Below, one piece after another: positions 4,228-18,040 of a DNA stretch of 64,000 nucleotides. Numbering within the stretch: position 1 is the first letter of the stretch; every line of letters begins with the position of its first letter. The translations under genes and the position numbers were made by a program. The notes under the pieces are model-generated. The model worked only from the letters and a program-made list of their open reading frames with translations, was not told the origin of the DNA and ran no database searches. This DNA comes from Methylococcus mesophilus (GTDB lineage Bacteria; Pseudomonadota; Gammaproteobacteria; Methylococcales; Methylococcaceae): contig NZ_CP110921.1 of assembly GCF_026247885.1 (NCBI RefSeq), positions 3,913,501-3,977,500 of the forward strand, read 5' to 3'.

Positions 4228-4494
4228 GGATCTCCTTGGGCTGCAGCTGGCAGGAAGGCGCGGGCGGGAGCGCTCGCCTGGAATGTTCCGTGATGGCGGC
4301 GTCACCGACAAGAGCTGGAGGCGGAGGGATTCCGGCGGCCGGCTGCAATCCCCAAGTGCCGGGGGTGGATTTCCCCCATCAGCGCGGAGAGATTTTAACC
4401 GTCTTCATGCAAATCAATGTCTTCGCCTTGTATTGAGCTGGCACGAACCGTGTTTACCCTAATCCGGAACCACCGCTCGTCCTTCGCCGATGCC

Positions 4495-4887
4495 ATGAAC
4501 TCGACCGATCCTTCCCGCAGCGTCCCCGCCACGATCCATTTGCTGGCTTATGCCAGTCCCAGAACCCATGCGCTCGATTCGGTCCGCCAGGCGCATTCGG
4601 TGATCGCCAGTCTCGGCCGCAAGGCCGGCAACTGGGTCGAACTCGATTTTTCCGGGGTGGAGAGCGTGAGCGCAGCGTTCACCGACGAACTGTTCGGCTT
4701 CCTCGAGCGGGAGGTGCCGGACATCTGGCTGGTGCCGACACATTACAACGAGAGTGTCAGGCCTCTCCTCAACCGCCATCTCAGCTTGCTGCAGCTAAGG
4801 CGGGACCAGGCCTGGTCCCGGGCTTCGACAGCCACGGAATTCGGAAGCTGCGCCGCCTTGGCCGGCCACTCCCAATCACAGCGTTGA
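4495..4887 (+). CDS. STAS-like protein (DUF4325 type)
   Basis: About 130 residues. The middle (NWVELDFSGVESVSAAFTDELFGFL) has the alternating strand and helix pattern and the conserved central sentence of STAS-like DUF4325 proteins, which are usually small regulatory or scaffold proteins. The ATG at 4495 is preferred because similarity starts soon after it; an earlier ATG at 4417 is possible. The last 25 residues are low in similarity and may be extra. It converges with the hydrogenase-like operon that ends at 4900. Confidence 0.6.
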   Translation: MNSTDPSRSVPATIHLLAYASPRTHALDSVRQAHSVIASLGRKAGNWVELDFSGVESVSAAFTDELFGFLEREVPDIWLVPTHYNESVRPLLNRHLSLLQLRRDQAWSRASTATEFGSCAALAGHSQSQR

Positions 4888-4899
4888 AGCTGCGGCTCT

Positions 4900-5409
4900 C
4901 TACCGCGAGATCAGGGACAGGAGGCCGCGGACCAGATCCGTCGGCGTCGGCGGGCAGCCGGGGATCACGGCGTCGACCCTGAGCACGTTGCCGACCGCAC
5001 CACAGCTCGCGTAGTTCACGCCGAACTCGCCGCCGCCGGCGGCGCACGTTCCAATCGCCACTACCCACTTGGGTTCCGGCGTCGCTTCCCAGGTCGCCAG
5101 CAGCGCCGCCTGCATGTGGCGGGAAACCGGCCCCGTCACCAGCAGCACGTCGGCATGGCGGGGCGAGGCGACGAAATGGACGCCGTAGCGCTCGACGTCG
5201 TAGAAGGGATTTCCCAGCGCGGCGATCTCCAGCTCGCAGGCGTTGCAGGAACCGGCGTCGACTTGCCGGATCGCGAGGCTCCCGGCGAAGCGCCCGTCGA
5301 TCACGGCTTTGAGTTCCGCACCCAGGCGGTCCAGCTCGGGGTCGGTCAGCGGTTTGAAGGTTTCGGTGACGATGCCAGCGCGGGCAATTTTGCTCAATAG
5401 ATTGTTCAT
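4900..5409 (-). CDS. hyfI: NuoB/HyfI-like FeS subunit of a hydrogenase-related complex
   Basis: A 169-residue small subunit of the NuoB / hydrogenase-4 small subunit family, the electron-transfer partner of the large subunit. Four cysteines match the proximal [4Fe-4S] ligands: CNAC at about 55-58 (hydrogenase-style spacing, not the adjacent CC of NuoB), GTC at 122 and PGC at 152. So the cluster site appears intact even though the partner large subunit has lost the NiFe site. The ATG at 5409 lies 10 bases after the stop of the large-subunit gene. Last gene of the six-gene operon. It sits on the cytoplasmic face of the membrane complex. Confidence 0.88.
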   Translation of the reverse strand: MNNLLSKIARAGIVTETFKPLTDPELDRLGAELKAVIDGRFAGSLAIRQVDAGSCNACELEIAALGNPFYDVERYGVHFVASPRHADVLLVTGPVSRHMQAALLATWEATPEPKWVVAIGTCAAGGGEFGVNYASCGAVGNVLRVDAVIPGCPPTPTDLVRGLLSLISR

Positions 5410-5419
5410 GGCGGCGGCT

Positions 5420-7042
5420 TTAGAGGTCGTGGCCGGAATACGAGCCGTTGACCGACTTGTTGCACAGGGGAAAGTCCGGAACGATGTTGCCGAGGATGAG
5501 CTTTTCCAGGGCCGGCCAGTTGAACACGCTGGGGTCGCGGGGGAAGAAGCGGGCGATGCGGCCGGTGCCGTCGAAGCGCACATAGGTGGCGATTTCGCCG
5601 CGCCATCCCTCCACCAGGCCCAGCCCTTCGGCATTTTCCGGAGGATCGCGCCAGGCCGCCCGCAGCGGTCCCGGTTCGATCCGCCGCAGGCATTGGTCGA
5701 GGATGTCCAGCGAAGCGAGCAGCTCTCCGTACCGGACGTACAGGCGGGCGGCGACGTCGCCGTCGCTGCGGGTGACGGCCTTGATCCCCAGCCGATCGTA
5801 GGGCGCGTGCGGCGCCCGTTCCCTTACGTCGCGGCCGATGCCGCAGGCCCGGGCCACGTAGCCCAGACAGCCCAGTTCACGGACGATGCGCTCCGGCAGC
5901 ACGCCCGCTCCGACCACGCGGTCCTGAAAGATCGTGCCTTCGTCCAATATCGGCTTCAATTCGTCCAACTCGCGCCGCAGGGTGGCAATGGCGCCCGGCA
6001 TCGCGCTAATGGCCTCCTCCGGCAGGTCCGCGGCGACGCCGCCCGGCACGACCCGGTCCATCAGCAGGCGATGGCCGAACCAGCGCAGGTTGTCGCGGAG
6101 CCAGAGCTCGCGCAGGCGGCTGAACTGGTAGTAACCGAAGGCGAAGGCCGTGTCGTTGCAGATCGCGCCGATGTCGTTGAGGTGATTGGCGACCCGCTCC
6201 CGTTCGGCGAAGACGGCCCTCAGCCATAAGCCCCGCTCCGGCGGCTCGACACCGGCGGCGCGCTCCATGGCCTGGCACGCGGCCCAGGCGTGGCCCACCG
6301 CGGTGTCGCCGGATACCCGCCCGGCCAAGCGTGCCAGGCTTTCGGGATCGCGGCCCTCGGCCAGTTTTTCGATCCCCTTGTGCACATATCCGAGGCGTTC
6401 TTCCAGGTTCAGCACCGTTTCTCCCACCGCAAGGAACCTGAAATGCCCCGGTTCGATGATGCCGGCATGGACCGGGCCGACCGGGATTTCGTTTACCTCG
6501 GGGCCGTGGGCGGAGGCGAACCCATAGCCCCGGTCCGGCGCCGTGACGGCCGGTGGATGGCCTGCCAGGGGGAAATCCGGCCGCAGCGGAAATTCGCGTT
6601 CACCCCAGGCCTGATGGCGCACCCAGCGCCGGTCGTCGGGGTGGCCGGTAAAATCCAGGCCCAGCAGGTCCCGCACATGGCGTTCGGGACGGGCCGCGCC
6701 GGGGAAGTGAGGCGTCTGCGAGGGCAGGTCGTTCCGGCCCGGCGGGAGCACCGTTCTGAGCAGCAGATAGTCGCCGGATTTTTCCAGCAAGGCGTTGACG
6801 ACCCAGCTTTCGCCCTGGGCGTCACCCCAGCCCGCCGCCCAGCGGCAGCCTTGGGCCGCGGCGGCTTCCGCGGCAAGAGCCCAGTCGTCGGGGCCGACCG
6901 GGCACAGCAGCGCGGGGCCTACGGCGCCTGCTCGGGATGTCTCATTGCCGAACTCCGGGGTTCCCAGGCTCTGCAAGCGTCCCGTCAGCCTGTCGGTGAC
7001 CGCGAATCTTTCCTCGTTGACGGCGGTTCGGATGGCGCTCAT
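5420..7042 (-). CDS. hyfG: HyfG/HycE-like large subunit (NuoC-NuoD fusion) lacking NiFe ligands
   Basis: A 540-residue fusion: residues 1 to about 160 resemble the 30-kDa NuoC domain, and about 170-540 the NuoD / group 4 hydrogenase large subunit (HKGIEKLAEG at 221-230, NHLNDIGAICNDTAF at 287-300). In true group 4 hydrogenases the first nickel-binding pair lies in RxCGxC; here that place reads GRVSGDTAVGHA (241-252) with no cysteine. The C-terminal DPCxxC is replaced by VNGSYSGHDL (531-540). All four ligands are therefore absent, as in the energy-converting hydrogenase-related (Ehr) complexes. Hydrogen turnover is not expected; the true substrate is unknown. The start ATG overlaps the stop of the preceding gene by four bases (ATGA), indicating translational coupling. 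Confidence 0.88.
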   Translation of the reverse strand: MSAIRTAVNEERFAVTDRLTGRLQSLGTPEFGNETSRAGAVGPALLCPVGPDDWALAAEAAAAQGCRWAAGWGDAQGESWVVNALLEKSGDYLLLRTVLPPGRNDLPSQTPHFPGAARPERHVRDLLGLDFTGHPDDRRWVRHQAWGEREFPLRPDFPLAGHPPAVTAPDRGYGFASAHGPEVNEIPVGPVHAGIIEPGHFRFLAVGETVLNLEERLGYVHKGIEKLAEGRDPESLARLAGRVSGDTAVGHAWAACQAMERAAGVEPPERGLWLRAVFAERERVANHLNDIGAICNDTAFAFGYYQFSRLRELWLRDNLRWFGHRLLMDRVVPGGVAADLPEEAISAMPGAIATLRRELDELKPILDEGTIFQDRVVGAGVLPERIVRELGCLGYVARACGIGRDVRERAPHAPYDRLGIKAVTRSDGDVAARLYVRYGELLASLDILDQCLRRIEPGPLRAAWRDPPENAEGLGLVEGWRGEIATYVRFDGTGRIARFFPRDPSVFNWPALEKLILGNIVPDFPLCNKSVNGSYSGHDL

Positions 7043-8505
7043 AGCGGCGCGCTCCCGGCAATGAGCCGCGTGGCTTGGCTGAACCAATCGGCCAGCACGC
7101 CCGGAATCGAGAGCCCCAGCCACAGGACGATGCCGAGATGGGCCATCACCGGCCAGAGGTTGGCCTGCACCGGCGCCTGTCCTGCCGGTTGTGGCCCGTA
7201 GGCCATGGGGTGCAAATGGCGGAACAGTCCGGCGAAGGCGACCGCGATCCCCAGCAGCAGGAGCGGCGTCAGCCAGGGGAATTCCTCCATGGTGGCGGTG
7301 AGCACCAGGAATTCGCTGGTGAAGACGCCGAACGGCGGCATTCCCGCGATCGCAACGACGCCAAATACCAGGCCCCAGCCGACCATCGGCTGGGTCCGCA
7401 TCAGGCCTCGGATATGCTCGATCCGCTGGGTTCGGGCGATCTGTGCGGCATGGCCCACCGTGATGAAGATCGCCGACTTGGTGAGCGAATGCACCGTCAT
7501 GTGCATCAGGGCCGCGAAGGTCGCCAGCGGGCCGCCCAGGCCGAAGGCGAAGGTCATGATGCCCATGTGTTCGATCGAGGAGTAGCTGAACAGCCGCTTG
7601 ACGTCGCGCTGGCGGTGCAGGAACAGCGCCGCCACCAGGAACGACAGCAGGCCGAAGCCCATCATCAGGTGGCCGGCCAGCGGACTTTGCAGCGAGCCGT
7701 CCACCAGCATCTTGGAGCGGACTACCGCATACAGCGCGTCGTTCAACAGCAGGCCGGAGAGGATGGCCGACATCGGCGTCGGGCCCTCGGAATGGGCATC
7801 CGGCAGCCAGTTGTGCAGAGGCACCAGCCCGATCTTGGTGCCGTAGCCGACCAGCAGGAAAACGAAGGCGATGCTCATGACCGTGGGATTCAGGTCGGCG
7901 GCATGGGCGTAGAGCACCGACCACTGCAATCCGTGCTCGCCTATTCCTTCCACCTGGCCCGCGGCGAAATAGAGCAGCACGGTGCCGAACAGCGCCTGGG
8001 CGATGCCGACGCCGCACAGGATGAAATATTTCCACGCCGCTTCGATCGATTCCGGGGAGCGGTACAGGCTGACCAGCAGCACCGTGGCCAGGGTCGCGCC
8101 TTCCATCGCCACCCACATCAACCCCAGGTTGTTGGTGGTCAGCACCAGGTACATGGTCAGCATGAAGCCCTGGTACATGGCATGGTAGAGCCGCATGCGC
8201 GCGGCGTTCACCCGCCCGTGTTCACGCTCGTTGGCCATATAGGGCGCCGAGAACATGGCCGTGGTGGTTCCCACGAAGGCAGTCAGCACGACCAGGTAGA
8301 CATTGAAAGCATCGACGCGGAACTGCAGGTCCGCCAGTTCGATGGTGCCCTGGCGCAATACCTCGGCCGCCAGCACCAGCGAAGCCAGGAAGACCAGGCC
8401 GCACAATCGCGTGTTGAGCCGTCCGGCCTGGGGCGCATCGCCGCGCCAGGCCTGATAGAGCATCCCGGCAAAGGGGATGCCCAGAATCCAGTAGACTGCG
8501 CTCAC
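7039..8505 (-). CDS. hyfF: HyfF-like proton-translocating membrane subunit
   Basis: A 488-residue antiporter-like membrane protein of the NuoL/M/N and MrpA/D superfamily. About 14 hydrophobic segments are visible, with the family sentences HNWLPDAHSEGPTPMSAILSG and LFSYSSIEHMGIMTFAFGLGG, including the lysines, histidines and acidic residues of the ion path. It would carry protons (or sodium) across the membrane in step with electron transfer by the HyfG/HyfI module. Overlaps hyfE by four bases upstream (ATGA) and hyfG by four bases downstream. Confidence 0.88.
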   Translation of the reverse strand: MSAVYWILGIPFAGMLYQAWRGDAPQAGRLNTRLCGLVFLASLVLAAEVLRQGTIELADLQFRVDAFNVYLVVLTAFVGTTTAMFSAPYMANEREHGRVNAARMRLYHAMYQGFMLTMYLVLTTNNLGLMWVAMEGATLATVLLVSLYRSPESIEAAWKYFILCGVGIAQALFGTVLLYFAAGQVEGIGEHGLQWSVLYAHAADLNPTVMSIAFVFLLVGYGTKIGLVPLHNWLPDAHSEGPTPMSAILSGLLLNDALYAVVRSKMLVDGSLQSPLAGHLMMGFGLLSFLVAALFLHRQRDVKRLFSYSSIEHMGIMTFAFGLGGPLATFAALMHMTVHSLTKSAIFITVGHAAQIARTQRIEHIRGLMRTQPMVGWGLVFGVVAIAGMPPFGVFTSEFLVLTATMEEFPWLTPLLLLGIAVAFAGLFRHLHPMAYGPQPAGQAPVQANLWPVMAHLGIVLWLGLSIPGVLADWFSQATRLIAGSAPL

Positions 8506-9179
8506 GGTTCCACCTCGCTCAGACGGTTCAGCCGGTCCACGTCCAGCGAGTCGATGCTGGAACGGATGTGGAAGAAGAACACGCCGAAGATGACGGCGGC
8601 GACCAGCACGTCGAAAGCGATGCCGAGTTCGACCACCATCGGCATGCCCTGGGTCGAGGCCACGGCGGCGAAGAACAGGCCGTTTTCGATCGCCATGAAG
8701 CCGATCACGTGGGTGACGACCTGGCGGCGGGTGATCATCAACAGCATTCCCAGCAGTACAACCGCCAGACTCACCGCCATGGCGTTGCGGGTCGCCAGCG
8801 TGGAGAGGTGCTCGATCGGTTCCACGACGTAATAACTGAACATTACCAGCGCGGCCGCGGCCATCATGACGTAGCCGTACAGGTAGAGCGGCTCGGCGTC
8901 GCGGTGCATGTCCAGCCGGACGATCAGCCGGTGGAGCATCGCCGGTATCAGGATGACTTTCAGCGCCATGATGATGAGGGCGGAAATGTAGAGGTGCGGA
9001 TAGGGCAGGGTGTAGGCGGCGAGCGCGGTGGTCGCGGCCAGCAGGGCGCCCTGGGCCGCGAACAGATGGATCATGCCGGACAGGCGTTTCTGGCCCAGCA
9101 TCAGGAACGACGTGAAGACTACCAGGGCGGCGATGAACAGGATCGCCTGTTCGTAGACCGAGTAAGCCGGAACGGGCAT
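8502..9179 (-). CDS. hyfE: HyfE-like membrane subunit
   Basis: A 225-residue protein with about seven hydrophobic segments, homologous to hydrogenase-4 component E. Its C-terminal half (VVTHVIGFMAIENGLFFAAV, then VELGIAFDVLVAAVIFG) is the NuoK/MrpC-like part, with the membrane-embedded glutamate in the MAIENG segment. Function is structural and part of ion translocation. The gene begins 5 bases after the stop of hyfC and overlaps hyfF by four bases. Confidence 0.87.
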   Translation of the reverse strand: MPVPAYSVYEQAILFIAALVVFTSFLMLGQKRLSGMIHLFAAQGALLAATTALAAYTLPYPHLYISALIIMALKVILIPAMLHRLIVRLDMHRDAEPLYLYGYVMMAAAALVMFSYYVVEPIEHLSTLATRNAMAVSLAVVLLGMLLMITRRQVVTHVIGFMAIENGLFFAAVASTQGMPMVVELGIAFDVLVAAVIFGVFFFHIRSSIDSLDVDRLNRLSEVEP

Positions 9180-9184
9180 GATGC

Positions 9185-10123
9185 CTAGACCTCCAGGATG
9201 ATGTGGCTCAGCATGCCGAGCAGGCTGAGCAGGTAAGCGAACCCCAGGAACTCCTGGACCCGGAACAGCCGCATCTTCGCGACCGAGGTTTCCGCCAGCG
9301 CGAGGGCGACCGCCAGTGCGCCGAGCTTGGCCGCGATGGCCGCGGCCCCGATGCCCAACGCCTCGGGCGTGAATTCACGGGCCAGTCCCCAGGGCAGGAA
9401 GATGTTGGCGATGAGTACGCCGTACAGCATCAGCCGGATCTGGCCGGCCCATTCGATCAGCGCCAGATGGCGGCCGCTGTATTCGAGGATCATGGCTTCA
9501 TGGATCATGGTCAGCTCGAGATGGGTGGCTGGGTTGTCGATGGGGATCCGCCCCGTTTCCGCCACGGCCACCAGCAGCAGTCCCCCCAGCGCGAACAGGA
9601 AGGAAGGCCGCAGCGCCAGACCGGTGTCCAGCAGATAATCGATGGCGACGGAAATATTGGTGGTGGAGGCGGTCAGCGCCAGGGTGAAGATGGCCATGAG
9701 CATGGCGGGTTCCGCCAGCGAGGCGATGGTCATCTCCCGCGACGAGCCCATGCCGCCGAAGGCGGTGCCGACGTCCATCCCGGCCAGGGCCAGGAAGAAC
9801 CGGCCCAGGGCGAAGAAGCCCACCAGCACGATCATGTCGGCGATGGCCGCCGTCGGCAGGTCTACGGCGAAGAACGGCACGATGGCGCCGGACAAGGCCG
9901 CCGCGCAGAACACGACGTAGGGCGTCACCGGAAACAGCCACGACGCGGTGTCGGCGACCACCGGGCGCTTGCCGAAAAGCTTCCGCAGGTCGCGATAGGG
10001 CTGCCACGGCGGCGGCGGGCGGCGGTTCTGCAGCAGGCACTTGATCCATTTGAGCCAGCCCGAAAACAGCGGCGCCAGCAGCGTGAACAGCACGGCCTGG
10101 GCCAGAGCGAGCAACCAATCCAT
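9185..10123 (-). CDS. hyfC: HyfC-like membrane subunit (NuoH homologue)
   Basis: A 312-residue multi-spanning protein of the NuoH/HycD/HyfC family that connects the soluble electron-transfer arm to the antiporter-like subunits. The cytoplasmic loop AETGRIPIDNPATHLELTMI with its conserved acidic residues is the family signature. The ATG at 10123 shares one base with the stop of hyfB (TGATG). Confidence 0.9.
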   Translation of the reverse strand: MDWLLALAQAVLFTLLAPLFSGWLKWIKCLLQNRRPPPPWQPYRDLRKLFGKRPVVADTASWLFPVTPYVVFCAAALSGAIVPFFAVDLPTAAIADMIVLVGFFALGRFFLALAGMDVGTAFGGMGSSREMTIASLAEPAMLMAIFTLALTASTTNISVAIDYLLDTGLALRPSFLFALGGLLLVAVAETGRIPIDNPATHLELTMIHEAMILEYSGRHLALIEWAGQIRLMLYGVLIANIFLPWGLAREFTPEALGIGAAAIAAKLGALAVALALAETSVAKMRLFRVQEFLGFAYLLSLLGMLSHIILEV

Positions 10124-12243
10124 CAGCTTACGACTCCCAAAAGAACGATCAGCGTCACGAAGGAATACGCGATGTATATCCGCACCTGCCCGGTCTGGAT
10201 CCGCGCCGTCAGGCGGGCGAGGTCTTCGACCACGCGGGTCAGCGGCAGGTACAGCCAGCGCCAGGAGCGGTCCCCGATCTCCAGCCGGTAGCGCAGGGCG
10301 GTGACCTGCAAGGGGTTGGCGGCCGCCGTTTCCGGGGCCGAGGTTTCGACGGTATCCCACACCGGTGCGAAGATGCGCCGGACCGGCTGAGCGAAGGCGG
10401 CGGCGGTGTATTGCATCCGGGGACTCAGGCCCCCGAAGCCGCAATCCCAGGCCGGTGCGTGCCGGACGTCAGCCGCCGGGCCGCGATGCTCGAGCCTGCG
10501 CAGGAGCCACCAGGCCAACGCCATCGCCAGCACCACCAGCGGCGCCGAGTACGAGGCCGTGCTGACGCCGCCCGGCGTCAGCCACAGCCAGCCTTGGGCC
10601 GAAGCGCTAGTCAGGGTTTCCCCGAGCAGTTGGCGGGTGATGGGGCGCATGGCGTCGAGCACCCAGGTCGGAAGCACCCCGAGCAGCAGGCACAGGCCGC
10701 CCAGCATAGCCGGCGCCCACAGCATGCCGGTATGCGACACCTCACGGGCATGGGCCGAGCGCCGCTCGCGCGGCTGGCCCAGGAACGCCACGCCGTAGAG
10801 CTTGACGAAACAGGCCGCAGCTACCGCGGCGGTAAACGCCAGGATTGCCGCCGCCACCGAGACCATGCTGCGCAGGATACCGTTGTCGATGACCGACGCC
10901 GCCTGCAGGGCCGCCTGAAAGGTCAGCCACTCCGAGACGAAGCCGTTCAGCGGCGGCAGGCCGGCAATCGCGACCGAGCCCGTCAGGAACAGCCCGGCGG
11001 TGACCGGCATGCGCTTGATCAACCCCCCCATGTGTTCCAGATCGTGCCGATGGGTCTGGTGGACCACCGAGCCCGCCGCCAGGAACAGCAGGTTCTTGAA
11101 CAATGAGTGGTTGAGGACGTGATACAGCGCGGCGACCAGGCCGATCAGCCCGAGCTGCACGTGTCCCTTGCCGATGAAGACCATGCAAAGGCCCAGCCCC
11201 ATGAACACGATCCCCATGTTCTCGATCGAAGAGTAGGCCAGCAGGCGCTTCAAATCGCTCTGTACCACCGCGTACAGAATGCCGAGCACCGCCGAGCCGG
11301 TTCCGAGGCCCAGCACGATGGCGCCCCAATACCACTGCACGTCGCCCAGCAGGTCGAACGCGAAGCGCAGCAGTCCATAGACCGCGATTTTCAGCATCAC
11401 GCCGCTCATCAGGCCGGAAATGTGGGCCGGCGCGGCGGGGTGGGCTTCCGGCAGCCAGGCGTGAAGCGGCACCAGACCCGCCTTCATCCCGAACCCGGCC
11501 AGGGCCAGCAGGAACGCGGCGGTTCCCCAGGCCGGCGTGACATGGACGTCCCGCCAGGCGTCGAAAGCGAAGCTGTGCGAAACCGCGGCCAGGACGCCGA
11601 ATGCCAGGATGATGGCGATGGCGCCCACCTCGCCCATCAGCAGGTAGAGGAAAGCCGCCCGCCGATGCGAGGCATGCTCATGCTGGTAGGCCACGAGGAA
11701 ATAGCTCGAGACCGTCATGGCTTCCCAGGCGATCACGAAAAAATAGGCATCGTCCGCAAGCAGGACGCCTTCCATGCCGGCAACGAACAAGCCGGTGAAG
11801 AGCCCGAGTGCTCCGAACGAGTACTGGCCGGCGAACTGGCGGGTGTAGCCCGGACCGTAAACGCCCGCGGCGATGACGCCCAGGCCGAGCACCACGAGAA
11901 AGAAGGCCGACAAGGTATCGAACCGCACATGCCAATGCAGCCAGGGCAGTCCGAAGGGTAGTTGGCCGGAAACTGCCGTACCGGCATGGAGCTGCAGGCC
12001 GCCGGCCGCCAGGGCCAGCACGCCGGACGCGGTCAGCAGCGCGAATACCAGGCGCCGCCAAGCGTGTGGCAAGCGTCGGGAATGGTTGGCCGCCTGTGCC
12101 AGGCTCGCGGGGATCGGGGGCTGGATAAGACCGGCGGCCCGCCGTGCCAGCCCCCCCCACGCTGCCCGATGTTCCCCCAGCAGTGCCAGCAGACCCGAAG
12201 ATAGCGCGGCCGCTACGGAGGCATAGGCCAGAAACAACGTCAT
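10123..12243 (-). CDS. hyfB: HyfB-like proton-translocating membrane subunit, first gene of the operon
   Basis: A 706-residue NuoL-type antiporter-like subunit with about 16 hydrophobic segments. It shows family sentences HAWLPEAHPAAPAHISGLMSG and LAYSSIENMGIVFMGLGL, and a long C-terminal extension ending in one more hydrophobic helix (VTLIVLLGVV), as in HyfB. The ATG at 12243 is chosen because the protein then starts with the first membrane helix (MTLFLAYASVAAALSS); an upstream in-frame extension of about 100 residues has no similarity. As first gene of the operon it should carry the promoter upstream, in 12244-12488. Only two antiporter-like subunits (HyfB, HyfF) are present; E. coli Hyf has a third, HyfD. 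Confidence 0.9.
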   Translation of the reverse strand: MTLFLAYASVAAALSSGLLALLGEHRAAWGGLARRAAGLIQPPIPASLAQAANHSRRLPHAWRRLVFALLTASGVLALAAGGLQLHAGTAVSGQLPFGLPWLHWHVRFDTLSAFFLVVLGLGVIAAGVYGPGYTRQFAGQYSFGALGLFTGLFVAGMEGVLLADDAYFFVIAWEAMTVSSYFLVAYQHEHASHRRAAFLYLLMGEVGAIAIILAFGVLAAVSHSFAFDAWRDVHVTPAWGTAAFLLALAGFGMKAGLVPLHAWLPEAHPAAPAHISGLMSGVMLKIAVYGLLRFAFDLLGDVQWYWGAIVLGLGTGSAVLGILYAVVQSDLKRLLAYSSIENMGIVFMGLGLCMVFIGKGHVQLGLIGLVAALYHVLNHSLFKNLLFLAAGSVVHQTHRHDLEHMGGLIKRMPVTAGLFLTGSVAIAGLPPLNGFVSEWLTFQAALQAASVIDNGILRSMVSVAAAILAFTAAVAAACFVKLYGVAFLGQPRERRSAHAREVSHTGMLWAPAMLGGLCLLLGVLPTWVLDAMRPITRQLLGETLTSASAQGWLWLTPGGVSTASYSAPLVVLAMALAWWLLRRLEHRGPAADVRHAPAWDCGFGGLSPRMQYTAAAFAQPVRRIFAPVWDTVETSAPETAAANPLQVTALRYRLEIGDRSWRWLYLPLTRVVEDLARLTARIQTGQVRIYIAYSFVTLIVLLGVVS

Positions 12244-12488
12244 GGAGAATCCTGGGGAAAGGCGAAAGGGATACCGCCGTGAAGCGAGTTCCGTGCCAAT
12301 GAGCCGGGTACCCGAAACGACAGGGAGTTCGCGAAGGTTTCCAAAACCCGCTGGCATGGCCGGGGTTGCTATGAACCGATGGATACGGGGTATTTGAACG
12401 GAAAGCCGCTGGAAAGCGGCGAGCGCATTGCGCCTCCAGACCCGAGCCGGCACACTGTGTGCTGCCTTCAATCGGAGGAACGACAGCC
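12244..12488. promoter_or_regulatory. Divergent intergenic region between hyfB and the Uma2 gene
   Basis: A 245-base gap between two outward-reading genes, so it should hold promoters for both. A ribosome binding site (GGAGGAA) just before 12489 serves the Uma2 gene. I could not pick out convincing -35/-10 pairs or an operator. Confidence 0.4.
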
Positions 12489-16073: not shown

Positions 16074-16361
16074 ATGCGTCTTAGCCAGACGGAAATCACC
16101 GCCATCAAGCAAACCGCGCAAGAGGTTTTCGGTGCCGACGTGGAGGTTGTCCTTTTCGGCAGCCGCACTGATGACAACAAAAGAGGCGGGGACATCGATT
16201 TGTATATCAAGGCTGGCCAGAATCAGGACTTAGCCCACAAAATCAAGTTCCTGGTTCGACTGGAGCAGAAAATAGGCGAGCAAAAAGTGGATGTGATTTT
16301 CAGCGAGGATGCAGGCAGGCCCATCGAGCGGCAGGCCGCAACGACCGGTATACCCCTATGA
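16074..16361 (+). CDS. mntA: MNT-domain nucleotidyltransferase antitoxin
   Basis: A 95-residue minimal nucleotidyltransferase with the signature GSRTDDNKRGGDIDLYI (GS, then the D-x-D metal-binding pair). In MntA/HepT systems this protein adds AMP to a tyrosine of the HEPN partner and so neutralises it. The partner gene follows with a four-base ATGA overlap. Complete, no damage seen. The family assignment is from motif and gene pairing; activity is inferred. Confidence 0.85.
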   Translation: MRLSQTEITAIKQTAQEVFGADVEVVLFGSRTDDNKRGGDIDLYIKAGQNQDLAHKIKFLVRLEQKIGEQKVDVIFSEDAGRPIERQAATTGIPL

Positions 16362-16837
16362 TAGATATCAGGCTGGAAAAACTTTTCAGCGAATGCGATA
16401 AGCATCTGGCTCGGATCAACCGCGCCGCAGCCAAAATGGCTCATTTCATGCCATTGAACCCCGCCACTTTCCGGGAGCTTACTGAAGATGACATCGAGCA
16501 TATCGACCAGTTCCTGTTCCGTTTCGCCAAACTGCAAGATGCTATTGGTGAAAGGCTGATAGTGCTATTGCTTGAATTTCTCCAAGAGCCCAACCCAAAG
16601 GGAAAGCCTTTTATCGATATCCTTAACAGGCTGGAGCAATTAGGCATCATGGATGACAAAAACGCCTGGCTGGAGCTGCGCAAATACCGGAACAACATCA
16701 CTCATCAATACGAAGATGAGCCCCGACTGGCCGCCGAAGCGCTCAATGCCATCTATACGGGAAAGTCCACGCTGGAACAGATTTATCAAAGGCTCAAGGC
16801 AAGTTACTTTCAGGCGCGCGGTAAGGCTTCATCGTAA
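16358..16837 (+). CDS. hepT: HEPN-domain ribonuclease toxin
   Basis: A 159-residue helical HEPN protein. The RNase-type motif R-x4-H-x-Y is present as RNNITHQY (about residues 111-118); in the HepT/MntA systems the arginine and histidine form the active site and the tyrosine is the AMP acceptor. Translationally coupled to the MNT antitoxin just upstream. The module is intact and is one of five MNT copies in the window. Confidence 0.82.
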   Translation: MIDIRLEKLFSECDKHLARINRAAAKMAHFMPLNPATFRELTEDDIEHIDQFLFRFAKLQDAIGERLIVLLLEFLQEPNPKGKPFIDILNRLEQLGIMDDKNAWLELRKYRNNITHQYEDEPRLAAEALNAIYTGKSTLEQIYQRLKASYFQARGKASS

Positions 16838-17107: not shown

Positions 17108-18040
17108 GTGAAAACTGACAGTCTTTTTTACCGGATATTCCAACGCTGGCCCGAACTGGTGCTCGAACTCGCCGAGATCGAAACCAGCGAGGCTTCTCGT
17201 TACGTATTCCGTTCTGAGGAAATCAAGCAGACGGCCTTTCGGATCGACGGCGTGCTGGCTCCGCCGGAAGATAGCGACGCTCCCTGGATCTTCGTCGAAA
17301 TCCAGTTCCAGCCCGATGACAGTCTGTACCGCCGCCTGTTCGCCGAAGTGTTCCTGTTCCTGCACCGCACGGATCCACCCAGGGCTTGGCGAGCGGTCGT
17401 GCTATACCCCGACTGGAGCATCGAGAGAGTTCCCGTCGGCTATGCCAGTCTGCTCTCGCTGCCTGAGATACGCCGGGTAGACCTCAGCGCCCTGTCCGGG
17501 CTTGTCGTGAGCGAAGCCGAAGGGCAGGATAGAAAATCCCTGGGGTGGGATATCCTGCACATCCTGATCGCTGATGACTCCCAGGCTGCGATTCAGAGGG
17601 CGCGCCGTCTCACCCGTCCCGAATATCGGGCACAATTGCCCGAGGCCATAGCTTGGTCGGAACTGCTGGATTTCGTCGAAACCGTAATGGTCTACAAATT
17701 GCCACGGAGCAGCCGTGAGGAGATACAAGCCATGCTTGGACTGACCGACATCGATCTCAAGCAAACCCGTTTTTACAAAGAAGTGCTGGCCGAAGGCCGG
17801 CAAGAAGGCCGACAAGAAGGCCGGCAAGAAGGCCGACAAGAAGGGCGACAAGAAGGGCGACAAGAAGGCCGCCAGGAAGAAGCTCTCCGGCTGTTGAAAA
17901 CGCTGTTGAACCGCCGCTTCGGCGTCTTGCCCGATTGGGTGGAAGCCCGGTTCGAGGAAGCGGAGCAGACCCAGCTGGAGCAATGGGCCGTGCGCGTGCT
18001 CGACGCCGAGACTCTGGAAGCCGTATTTCAGGACAAGTGA
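17108..18040 (+). CDS. Rpn/PD-(D/E)XK-type nuclease-like protein (DUF2887) with GRQE repeats
   Basis: A 310-residue protein. The N-terminal 200 residues (SLFYRIFQRWPELVLEL, then FRIDGVLAPP and IFVEIQFQPDDSLYRRLFAE) match DUF2887, related to the Rpn recombination-promoting nucleases with a PD-(D/E)XK fold; D in RIDGVL and E-x-Q in VEIQF would be the active site. Then come seven GRQE repeats, and the C-terminus (LLKTLLNRRFGVLPDWVEAR and onward) matches DUF4351. Intact. The start GTG at 17108 is consistent with the usual MKTD opening. Orphan gene between two toxin-antitoxin blocks. Confidence 0.8.
   Translation: MKTDSLFYRIFQRWPELVLELAEIETSEASRYVFRSEEIKQTAFRIDGVLAPPEDSDAPWIFVEIQFQPDDSLYRRLFAEVFLFLHRTDPPRAWRAVVLYPDWSIERVPVGYASLLSLPEIRRVDLSALSGLVVSEAEGQDRKSLGWDILHILIADDSQAAIQRARRLTRPEYRAQLPEAIAWSELLDFVETVMVYKLPRSSREEIQAMLGLTDIDLKQTRFYKEVLAEGRQEGRQEGRQEGRQEGRQEGRQEGRQEEALRLLKTLLNRRFGVLPDWVEARFEEAEQTQLEQWAVRVLDAETLEAVFQDK
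17795..17878 (+). repeat. Seven in-frame copies of a 12-base repeat encoding GRQE
   Basis: The unit GGCCGGCAAGAA recurs seven times with few changes inside the DUF2887 gene. Because the unit is 12 bases, copy-number change would alter protein length without breaking the frame. The charged linker probably forms a long helix. Confidence 0.85.

Follow-up and report, generated by a model that had tools for sequence, protein, structure and literature searches.

The window (the whole 64,000-nt stretch analysed, positions 3,913,501 to 3,977,500 of contig NZ_CP110921.1, part of the complete 4.34-Mb genome of Methylococcus mesophilus) carried on its minus strand, from 12243 to 4900, an operon of six packed genes in the order B–C–E–F–G–I. 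Judged from sequence, the product is an energy-converting hydrogenase-related (Ehr) complex: it had the subunit set of group 4 hydrogenases and complex I, with a large subunit devoid of the NiFe CxxC motifs. Sequence comparison across the order to which the window belongs gave good support to the view that Ehr, a SulP anion transporter, and an NtrC-type sigma-54 regulator constitute one regulon, within which DabA/DabB apparently substitutes for Ehr in some genera without Ehr. On balance, Ehr in the methanotrophs of this order would be a complex I-like pump without NiFe that serves to acquire inorganic carbon in the form of CO2 or bicarbonate. Ehr was already known as a family; judging by the literature search, its regulon and proposed role had not been described before.

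Regulon context of Ehr

Ehr loci, flanks included, were collected from 65 contigs and from 61 genomes of the order, 34 of which carried Ehr (loci and genomes are labelled L and G, respectively). Of the 34 Ehr genomes, 14 had a SulP gene (PF00916) at most 9 kb from Ehr, placed directly upstream, divergently, or between F and G within the operon (L110, L113, and L116); in L134 it was found directly before G at a contig edge. The Ehr-linked SulPs belonged to one subfamily, distinct from the SulPs linked to carbonic anhydrase (CA), and their divergence tracked that of G (Mantel r 0.62 over 27 loci, 0 of 2000 permutations). At the level of whole genomes, SulP was present in 30/34 Ehr genomes versus 15/27 others (p 0.007; this and the following p-values are descriptive, because related genomes are not independent). 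Three further genes recurred beside SulP/Ehr, namely those for a histidine kinase, an NtrC-type sigma-54 activator, and a DUF2490 protein.

The genome of the window had its SulP, histidine kinase, and NtrC genes together at 1.73 Mb, away from Ehr, and this NtrC was 73–74% identical to the NtrC proteins encoded beside Ehr in L105, L109, and L096 and 58–63% identical to the next nine. An NtrC ortholog was found in 45/61 genomes of the order (the match of G054 had two stop codons, and G056 had two matches), and it was located at most 9 kb from SulP in 18 genomes, from Ehr in six, and from DabA2 (a second DabA type, at least 57% identical to the DabA of L120) in three; within the same distance, SulP and DabA2 were paired in two genomes, and Ehr and DabA2 in one. 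These linkages included (i) a sigma-54 site, DabA2, its Proton_antipo_M partner DabB2, and NtrC in a row in L182, (ii) DabB2–DabA2, NtrC–histidine kinase–DUF2490, and SulP in L179, and (iii) DabA2 378 bp downstream of Ehr in L120. Ehr or DabA2 was present in 40/45 genomes with NtrC versus 1/16 without it (p 3e-9), and when counted by genus, NtrC occurred in 20/20 genera with Ehr or DabA2 and in 0/6 others. The 45 NtrC genomes were divided into 31 with Ehr only, seven with DabA2 only, two with both, and five with neither (p 0.0005); this mutual avoidance of Ehr and DabA2 was weaker over all 61 genomes (p 0.065).

Two features upstream of the operon, given below, were shared with other members of the proposed regulon.

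12283..12298, minus strand: sigma-54 type -24/-12 site TGGCACGGAACTCGCT, starting 55 nt before the ATG of B (one match in 64 kb, 0.17 expected)
12364..12377, no strand assigned: palindrome GGTT-N6-AACC, 79 bp upstream of the sigma-54 site of the window

The sigma-54 site was found at the same position in related operons, and that of the genome's own SulP gene at 1.73 Mb started 57 nt before the SulP start. With a score of at least 10 and a location 44–65 nt before the first gene, such sites were detected in 20/43 loci of the order (including the near-duplicates L088/L123, L049/L050, and L073/L081), 7/704 background open reading frames (ORFs), and 0/45 other loci (including three Cys-intact hydrogenase operons); some SulP promoters were missed because gene starts were called mechanically. 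The palindrome, a candidate binding site of the NtrC-type regulator, was obtained by dyad ranking upstream of 27 sigma-54 sites (11/27 versus 9/677 in the background). It was present upstream of 20/65 genes of the module versus 14/677 others and 0/47 Ehr genes of other groups, and outside the discovery set it was found in 11/38 regions, two of them from one genome (10/38 as tested, p 6e-8). The single copy in the window, compared with 0.86 expected, carries no weight by itself. The genome's own SulP locus (L136) matched the palindrome at 7/8 positions, and no palindrome was found at its own DabA locus (L135; 1.887 Mb, far from the operon of the window). A perfect palindrome, GGTTGATATCAACC, was also observed at 6201–6214 of L137, upstream of the genome's own SulP–CA pair and with no sigma-54 site nearby.

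In other orders, an XRE-type regulator seems to take the place of histidine kinase/NtrC control. A gene for such a regulator (about 90 amino acids) was found directly before B in 23 loci (L051–L095, many from Chromatiales), often with a 4-base overlap. At L072 and L076 (Comamonadaceae, Rhodoferax), two Ehr-type operons were arranged head to head, the second being cut by the end of the stretch.

Proposed function and alternatives

A role in carbon acquisition was taken, with modest confidence, as the best-supported function, SulP being the predicted bicarbonate/CO2 carrier. Ehr would then belong to the outputs of a dedicated two-component/sigma-54 system whose regulon includes the SulP anion transporter: a reduced carrier would feed electrons straight into I at its only [4Fe-4S] cluster, from which they would pass to the rebuilt pocket in G; the electron transfer would power the movement of ions through B, F, C, and E, and the ion gradient, or direct coupling, would drive accumulation of bicarbonate/CO2 together with SulP. 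The original prediction had proposed an ion-pumping redox complex with an unknown partner; candidates can now be named at the level of the regulon (SulP, the histidine kinase/sigma-54 regulator, DUF2490, and the apparent DabA/DabB substitute).

Several observations pointed to carbon: (i) the annotation of DabA names it a probable subunit of an inorganic carbon transporter; (ii) L040 contained SulP–Ehr followed by a second SulP gene (SulP2) plus beta-CA, with DabA 7.1 kb further on; (iii) beta-CA was also found beside Ehr in L087 and L071; and (iv) Ehr was present in 21/25 genomes with RuBisCO versus 13/36 without it (p 2e-4; G048, with 64 bits, was excluded from the RuBisCO set, which hence had 25 and not 26 genomes). 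The SulP–CA pair of L040 resembled the pair L137 of the window's genome, whose CA begins with MEAFERM, as does the MCA1422 primer of PMC11423575; in the accessible part of that paper, CA3 (MCA1422) shares an operon with a SulP gene, and CO2 assimilation increased when CA3 was overexpressed.

Other results weighed against this role or against the regulon on which it builds. RuBisCO was absent from 13/34 Ehr genomes, and DabA was not enriched with Ehr across the class (9/38 versus 66/283). The subclade of the window had an adjacent SulP in 0/10 rows (three of them cut by contig ends), and its link to SulP would therefore run via regulator and promoter only. Five genomes bore the regulator with neither Ehr nor DabA2, and G046 had Ehr without a full NtrC match. 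Among 38 class-sample loci of other orders, seven of which were partly mapped or had no recognisable core so that matches may have been missed (L152, L155, L164, L165, L167, and fragments), only one had a SulP/CA/DabA match, which involved another SulP subfamily; elsewhere outside the order, matches were confined to L051/L053 (that other SulP subfamily) and L071/L087 (CA). Furthermore, one SulP clade is without tested function in the accessible part of PMC6458275, in which the Ehr-linked subfamily could not be placed.

Two alternatives were kept, each with a low probability. First, Ehr, SulP, and DabA2 might form a redox/pH homeostasis module that answers pH or envelope stress and maintains proton/bicarbonate balance instead of supplying carbon; this is possible though unlikely. 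All the listed parts move H+, Na+, or anions, many Ehr genomes have no RuBisCO (see above), and a proton-homeostasis role is suggested for a SulP/CA pair in the part of PMC6458275 available, but the association with RuBisCO together with the beta-CA and DabA links favours carbon, not exclusively. Second, Ehr might be a generic respiratory pump; the anion transported by SulP would then be a different one (sulfate, formate, or other), and the link to DabA2 would be incidental via a shared stress regulator. Varied anions are carried by SulP proteins according to the accessible part of PMC10880623, the closest solved SulP chains (5da0, E 9e-22; 6ki1, E 4e-19) do not settle the substrate, and Ehr operons outside the order mostly had no SulP, CA, or DabA beside them; this alternative was nonetheless considered improbable, since Ehr and DabA2 avoid each other inside the regulon and the NtrC gene lies directly after DabA2–DabB2.

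If the regulon reading is true, a methanotroph open to genetic work allows the function of Ehr to be tested, a further family joins the machinery of inorganic carbon supply, and formate-derived hydrogen production is no longer to be inferred from this operon. A carbon-uptake pump would also have practical value, M. capsulatus being engineered for CO2 use as described in the accessible text of PMC11423575.

Operon structure and large subunit

The six genes of the operon and the two motif positions of its large subunit were as follows.

10123..12243, minus strand: hyfB-like gene, antiporter-like membrane subunit (706 amino acids; NCBIfam PRK06521 hydrogenase 4 subunit B, 903.6 bits, above cut-off)
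9185..10123, minus strand: hyfC-like gene, NuoH-type membrane subunit (312 amino acids; Pfam NADHdh, 110 bits)
8502..9179, minus strand: hyfE-like gene (225 amino acids; NCBIfam hydrogenase 4 membrane subunit, 89 bits, under the cut-off of 136)
7039..8505, minus strand: hyfF-like gene, antiporter-like membrane subunit (488 amino acids, GTG start; NCBIfam hydrogenase 4 subunit F, 809.9 bits, above cut-off)
5420..7042, minus strand: large subunit G without NiFe ligands (540 amino acids; Pfam Complex1_49kDa and 30kDa; best solved match 7z0s_E)
4900..5409, minus strand: small subunit I, NuoB-like (169 amino acids; Pfam Oxidored_q6, 102.8 bits; cluster cysteines C55, C58, C122, and C152)
6302..6319, minus strand: RVSGDT in place of RxCGxC (G residues 242–247)
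5432..5449, minus strand: NGSYSG in place of DPCxxC (G residues 532–537)

The gene calls and the NCBIfam/Pfam matches bore out the group 4 hydrogenase subunit set and the tight spacing described in the original prediction, with a 1-base overlap at B/C, a 5-base gap at C/E, 4-base overlaps at E/F and F/G, and a 10-base gap at G/I. The operon contained no ferredoxin-type subunit, protease, or hyp gene, in agreement with the earlier statement that HyfA/HyfH-type ferredoxin subunits and maturation genes are absent (no search was made for hyp genes in the rest of the genome).

In the alignment, RVSGDT of G stood opposite RVCGIC of E. coli HyfG and HycE, as had been read from the sequence before, and NGSYSG (532–537) stood opposite DPCYSC; the loss of the C-terminal cysteines was thus upheld, while the register proposed for it, VNGSYS, was one residue off. 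The four NiFe ligand cysteines were replaced by S244, T247, S534, and G537. In the 133 Ehr rows aligned, the ligand columns held, in order, S in 125, S/T in 127, S in 121 (five gaps), and G in 127 (five gaps); one ligand-column cysteine was found in 8/133 rows and two in none. D246 was present in 133/133 rows and N532 in all 129 rows without a gap, while the Cys-intact relatives of the same order (L125, L131, and L132) had CCCC in the ligand columns, V246, and E532. This replacement pattern was judged, from the alignment, not to be chance. Three basal-looking Ehr rows, L170, L172, and L173, retained one ligand cysteine (RICxDS or RSCGDS) and had lost the others, and they may be intermediates of ligand loss.

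The best solved-structure match of G was HycE of E. coli formate hydrogenlyase (7z0s_E, 1.8e-66). G ended three residues past NGSYSG, at the place of the last Arg in CYSCTDR, and the Cys-intact relatives ended likewise; thus, no C-terminal cleavage would be needed. The genome's own NuoCD had D-Y and PSVHG where G had S-G245 and I196, which we take to be the positions of the quinone-site Tyr and His of complex I NuoD. On these alignments the pocket of G does not qualify as a NiFe site, because the ligands are lost, nor as a canonical quinone site, because Tyr/His are replaced by G245/I196. The AlphaFold model of G had a predicted template modelling (pTM) score of 0.85 and a mean predicted local distance difference test (pLDDT) score of 79.5, and its best Foldseek match was again 7z0s_E (28% identity in the fold match); the pocket is not readable from this model, because residues 178–221 and 525–540, which contain much of it, had pLDDT below 50. 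A possible metal site formed by C256/C527 was considered and set aside: both cysteines were present in 114/133 rows and jointly absent in six (A with I or V).

An extension of the carbon role, speculative and rather doubtful, is that the former NiFe pocket now serves as a site for handling CO2, which would be formed by the invariant R242, D246, N528, K529, N532, and Y535; Ehr would in that case be a separately evolved complex I-type carbon-accumulating machine, interchangeable with DabA/DabB under one sigma-54 regulon.

A published annotation bears on the same operon. G of M. capsulatus Texas was 90% identical to G of the window, and the operon of the window is probably the MCA1137–1142 operon of M. 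capsulatus (Bath), listed as 'multisubunit formate hydrogenlyase' in the accessible part of Ward et al. 2004 (PMC517821); Bath itself was outside the sequence sets used, and the correspondence was inferred because GDP-mannose 4,6-dehydratase is annotated near the operon in Bath (MCA1146, same source) and was found just upstream of the Ehr operon in strain Texas. That the complex is a formate hydrogenlyase or hydrogenase 4, as this annotation and the NCBIfam subunit names imply, is very improbable and is refuted at the sequence level by loss of the four NiFe ligands; no ligand cysteine pair remains in the Ehr rows, the operon has no HyfA/HyfH-type subunit, and the large subunit of hyfBCEFGI of At. 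ferrooxidans is classed as non-hydrogenase in the part of PMC7735108 available.

Conserved pump core and phylogeny

The small subunit had been described before as retaining four cluster cysteines, and these proved to be near-invariant: cysteines 55, 58, 122, and 152 were kept in 120, 120, 120, and 119 of 120 rows, respectively. Charged residues of the membrane subunits, presumably the pumping residues, were likewise invariant or almost so: (i) E174, K254, and K383 of B in 112/112 rows; (ii) E189, D196, E203, E209, and E214 of C in 119/119 rows; and (iii) E135 and K343 of F in 130/130 rows and K224 in 129/130. The near-invariance of the small-subunit cysteines and of the charged residues of B, F, and C indicates that selection maintains the Ehr complex as a redox-linked pump. 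The near-invariant D246/N532, the intact pump core, and the intact [4Fe-4S] site together argue for a new function rather than decay; a decaying pseudo-complex retained by linkage only is hardly credible, since the reading frames are open throughout the family, the new residues are invariant, the pump residues are intact, and the promoter is conserved.

A quick maximum-likelihood tree (with the Shimodaira–Hasegawa-like approximate likelihood ratio test, SH-aLRT, as its only support measure, a root that rests on one very long NuoCD branch, and one Nitrospinota row representing Ehr of other phyla) grouped 122 Ehr rows into a clade (SH-aLRT 97), sister to the Cys-intact hydrogenases, with HycE/HyfG next out. 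The tree and the alignments with HycE/HyfG/NuoCD thereby supported the original assignment to an Ehr-type, NiFe-free, ion-pumping redox complex. G of the window fell into a 10-row subclade with other Methylococcus copies, and most SulP-linked copies fell into a separate 36-row subclade.

Comparison with known systems

Ehr complexes were reportedly treated by Marreiros et al. in 2013. The complex of the window shares with them the group 4 hydrogenase architecture without NiFe cysteines, and it differs in its regulon (SulP, histidine kinase/NtrC, sigma-54, and DUF2490) and in the apparent DabA/DabB substitute. In the accessible parts of papers on Sulfobacillus, Nitrospira, and ammonia-oxidising archaea, the function of Ehr is given as unknown; for Ehr of Margulisbacteria, a formate dehydrogenase partner is proposed in the text available, while none was seen beside the operon of the window. 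In the literature outside subscription papers and preprints, nothing was found that ties Ehr or hydrogenase-4-like genes to SulP, DabA, or inorganic carbon, and the words 'hydrogenase' and 'hyf' do not occur in PMC10880623, PMC12628692, or PMC6458275.

E. coli hydrogenase 4 (Hyf) and hydrogenase 3 (Hyc/formate hydrogenlyase) share subunits B, C, E, F, G, and I with the operon of the window, which however has no NiFe ligands, HyfA, HyfD, HyfH, HyfJ, or HyfR, and whose small subunit has 169 amino acids versus about 252 in HyfI (from coordinates). The Cys-intact group 4 hydrogenases (L125, L131, and L132, from the family of the window) constitute the sister group with the same gene order B–C–E–F–G–I and no C-terminal tail, but they have RICGVC and CYSCTDR at the ligand positions, R540 in addition to V246 and E532, and none of them was scored in the NtrC regulon. 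Compared to complex I, the six-gene operon lacks the electron-input module NuoE, F, G, and I. DabA/DabB (DAB/DAC) resembles Ehr in that its DabB-like partner is of antiporter type (Proton_antipo_M) and DabA2 belongs to the same regulon, while a DabA subunit is missing from Ehr, apart from the DabA directly downstream in L120. The cyanobacterial NDH-1 CO2-uptake forms, described as complex I relatives for carbon concentration in the accessible part of PMC6981117, provide an analogy, with no homology claimed beyond the shared core.

Other features of the window

The flanking genes of the operon encoded DUF4325, a HAD hydrolase, and Uma2. The DUF4325 (STAS-like) gene (4417–4887, plus strand) converges on the end of the operon, and several relatives had homologs of it next to Ehr. 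Neither the Rfam scan nor the tRNA scan of the window gave a match. At 16074–16837 (plus strand), a nucleotidyltransferase-domain gene was followed by an overlapping ORF of 159 amino acids without Pfam match, a layout like that of a toxin–antitoxin pair. The DUF2887/DUF4351 protein encoded at 17108–18040 (plus strand) displayed a series of almost identical Gly-Arg-Gln-Glu (EGRQ) repeats close to its C-terminal part.

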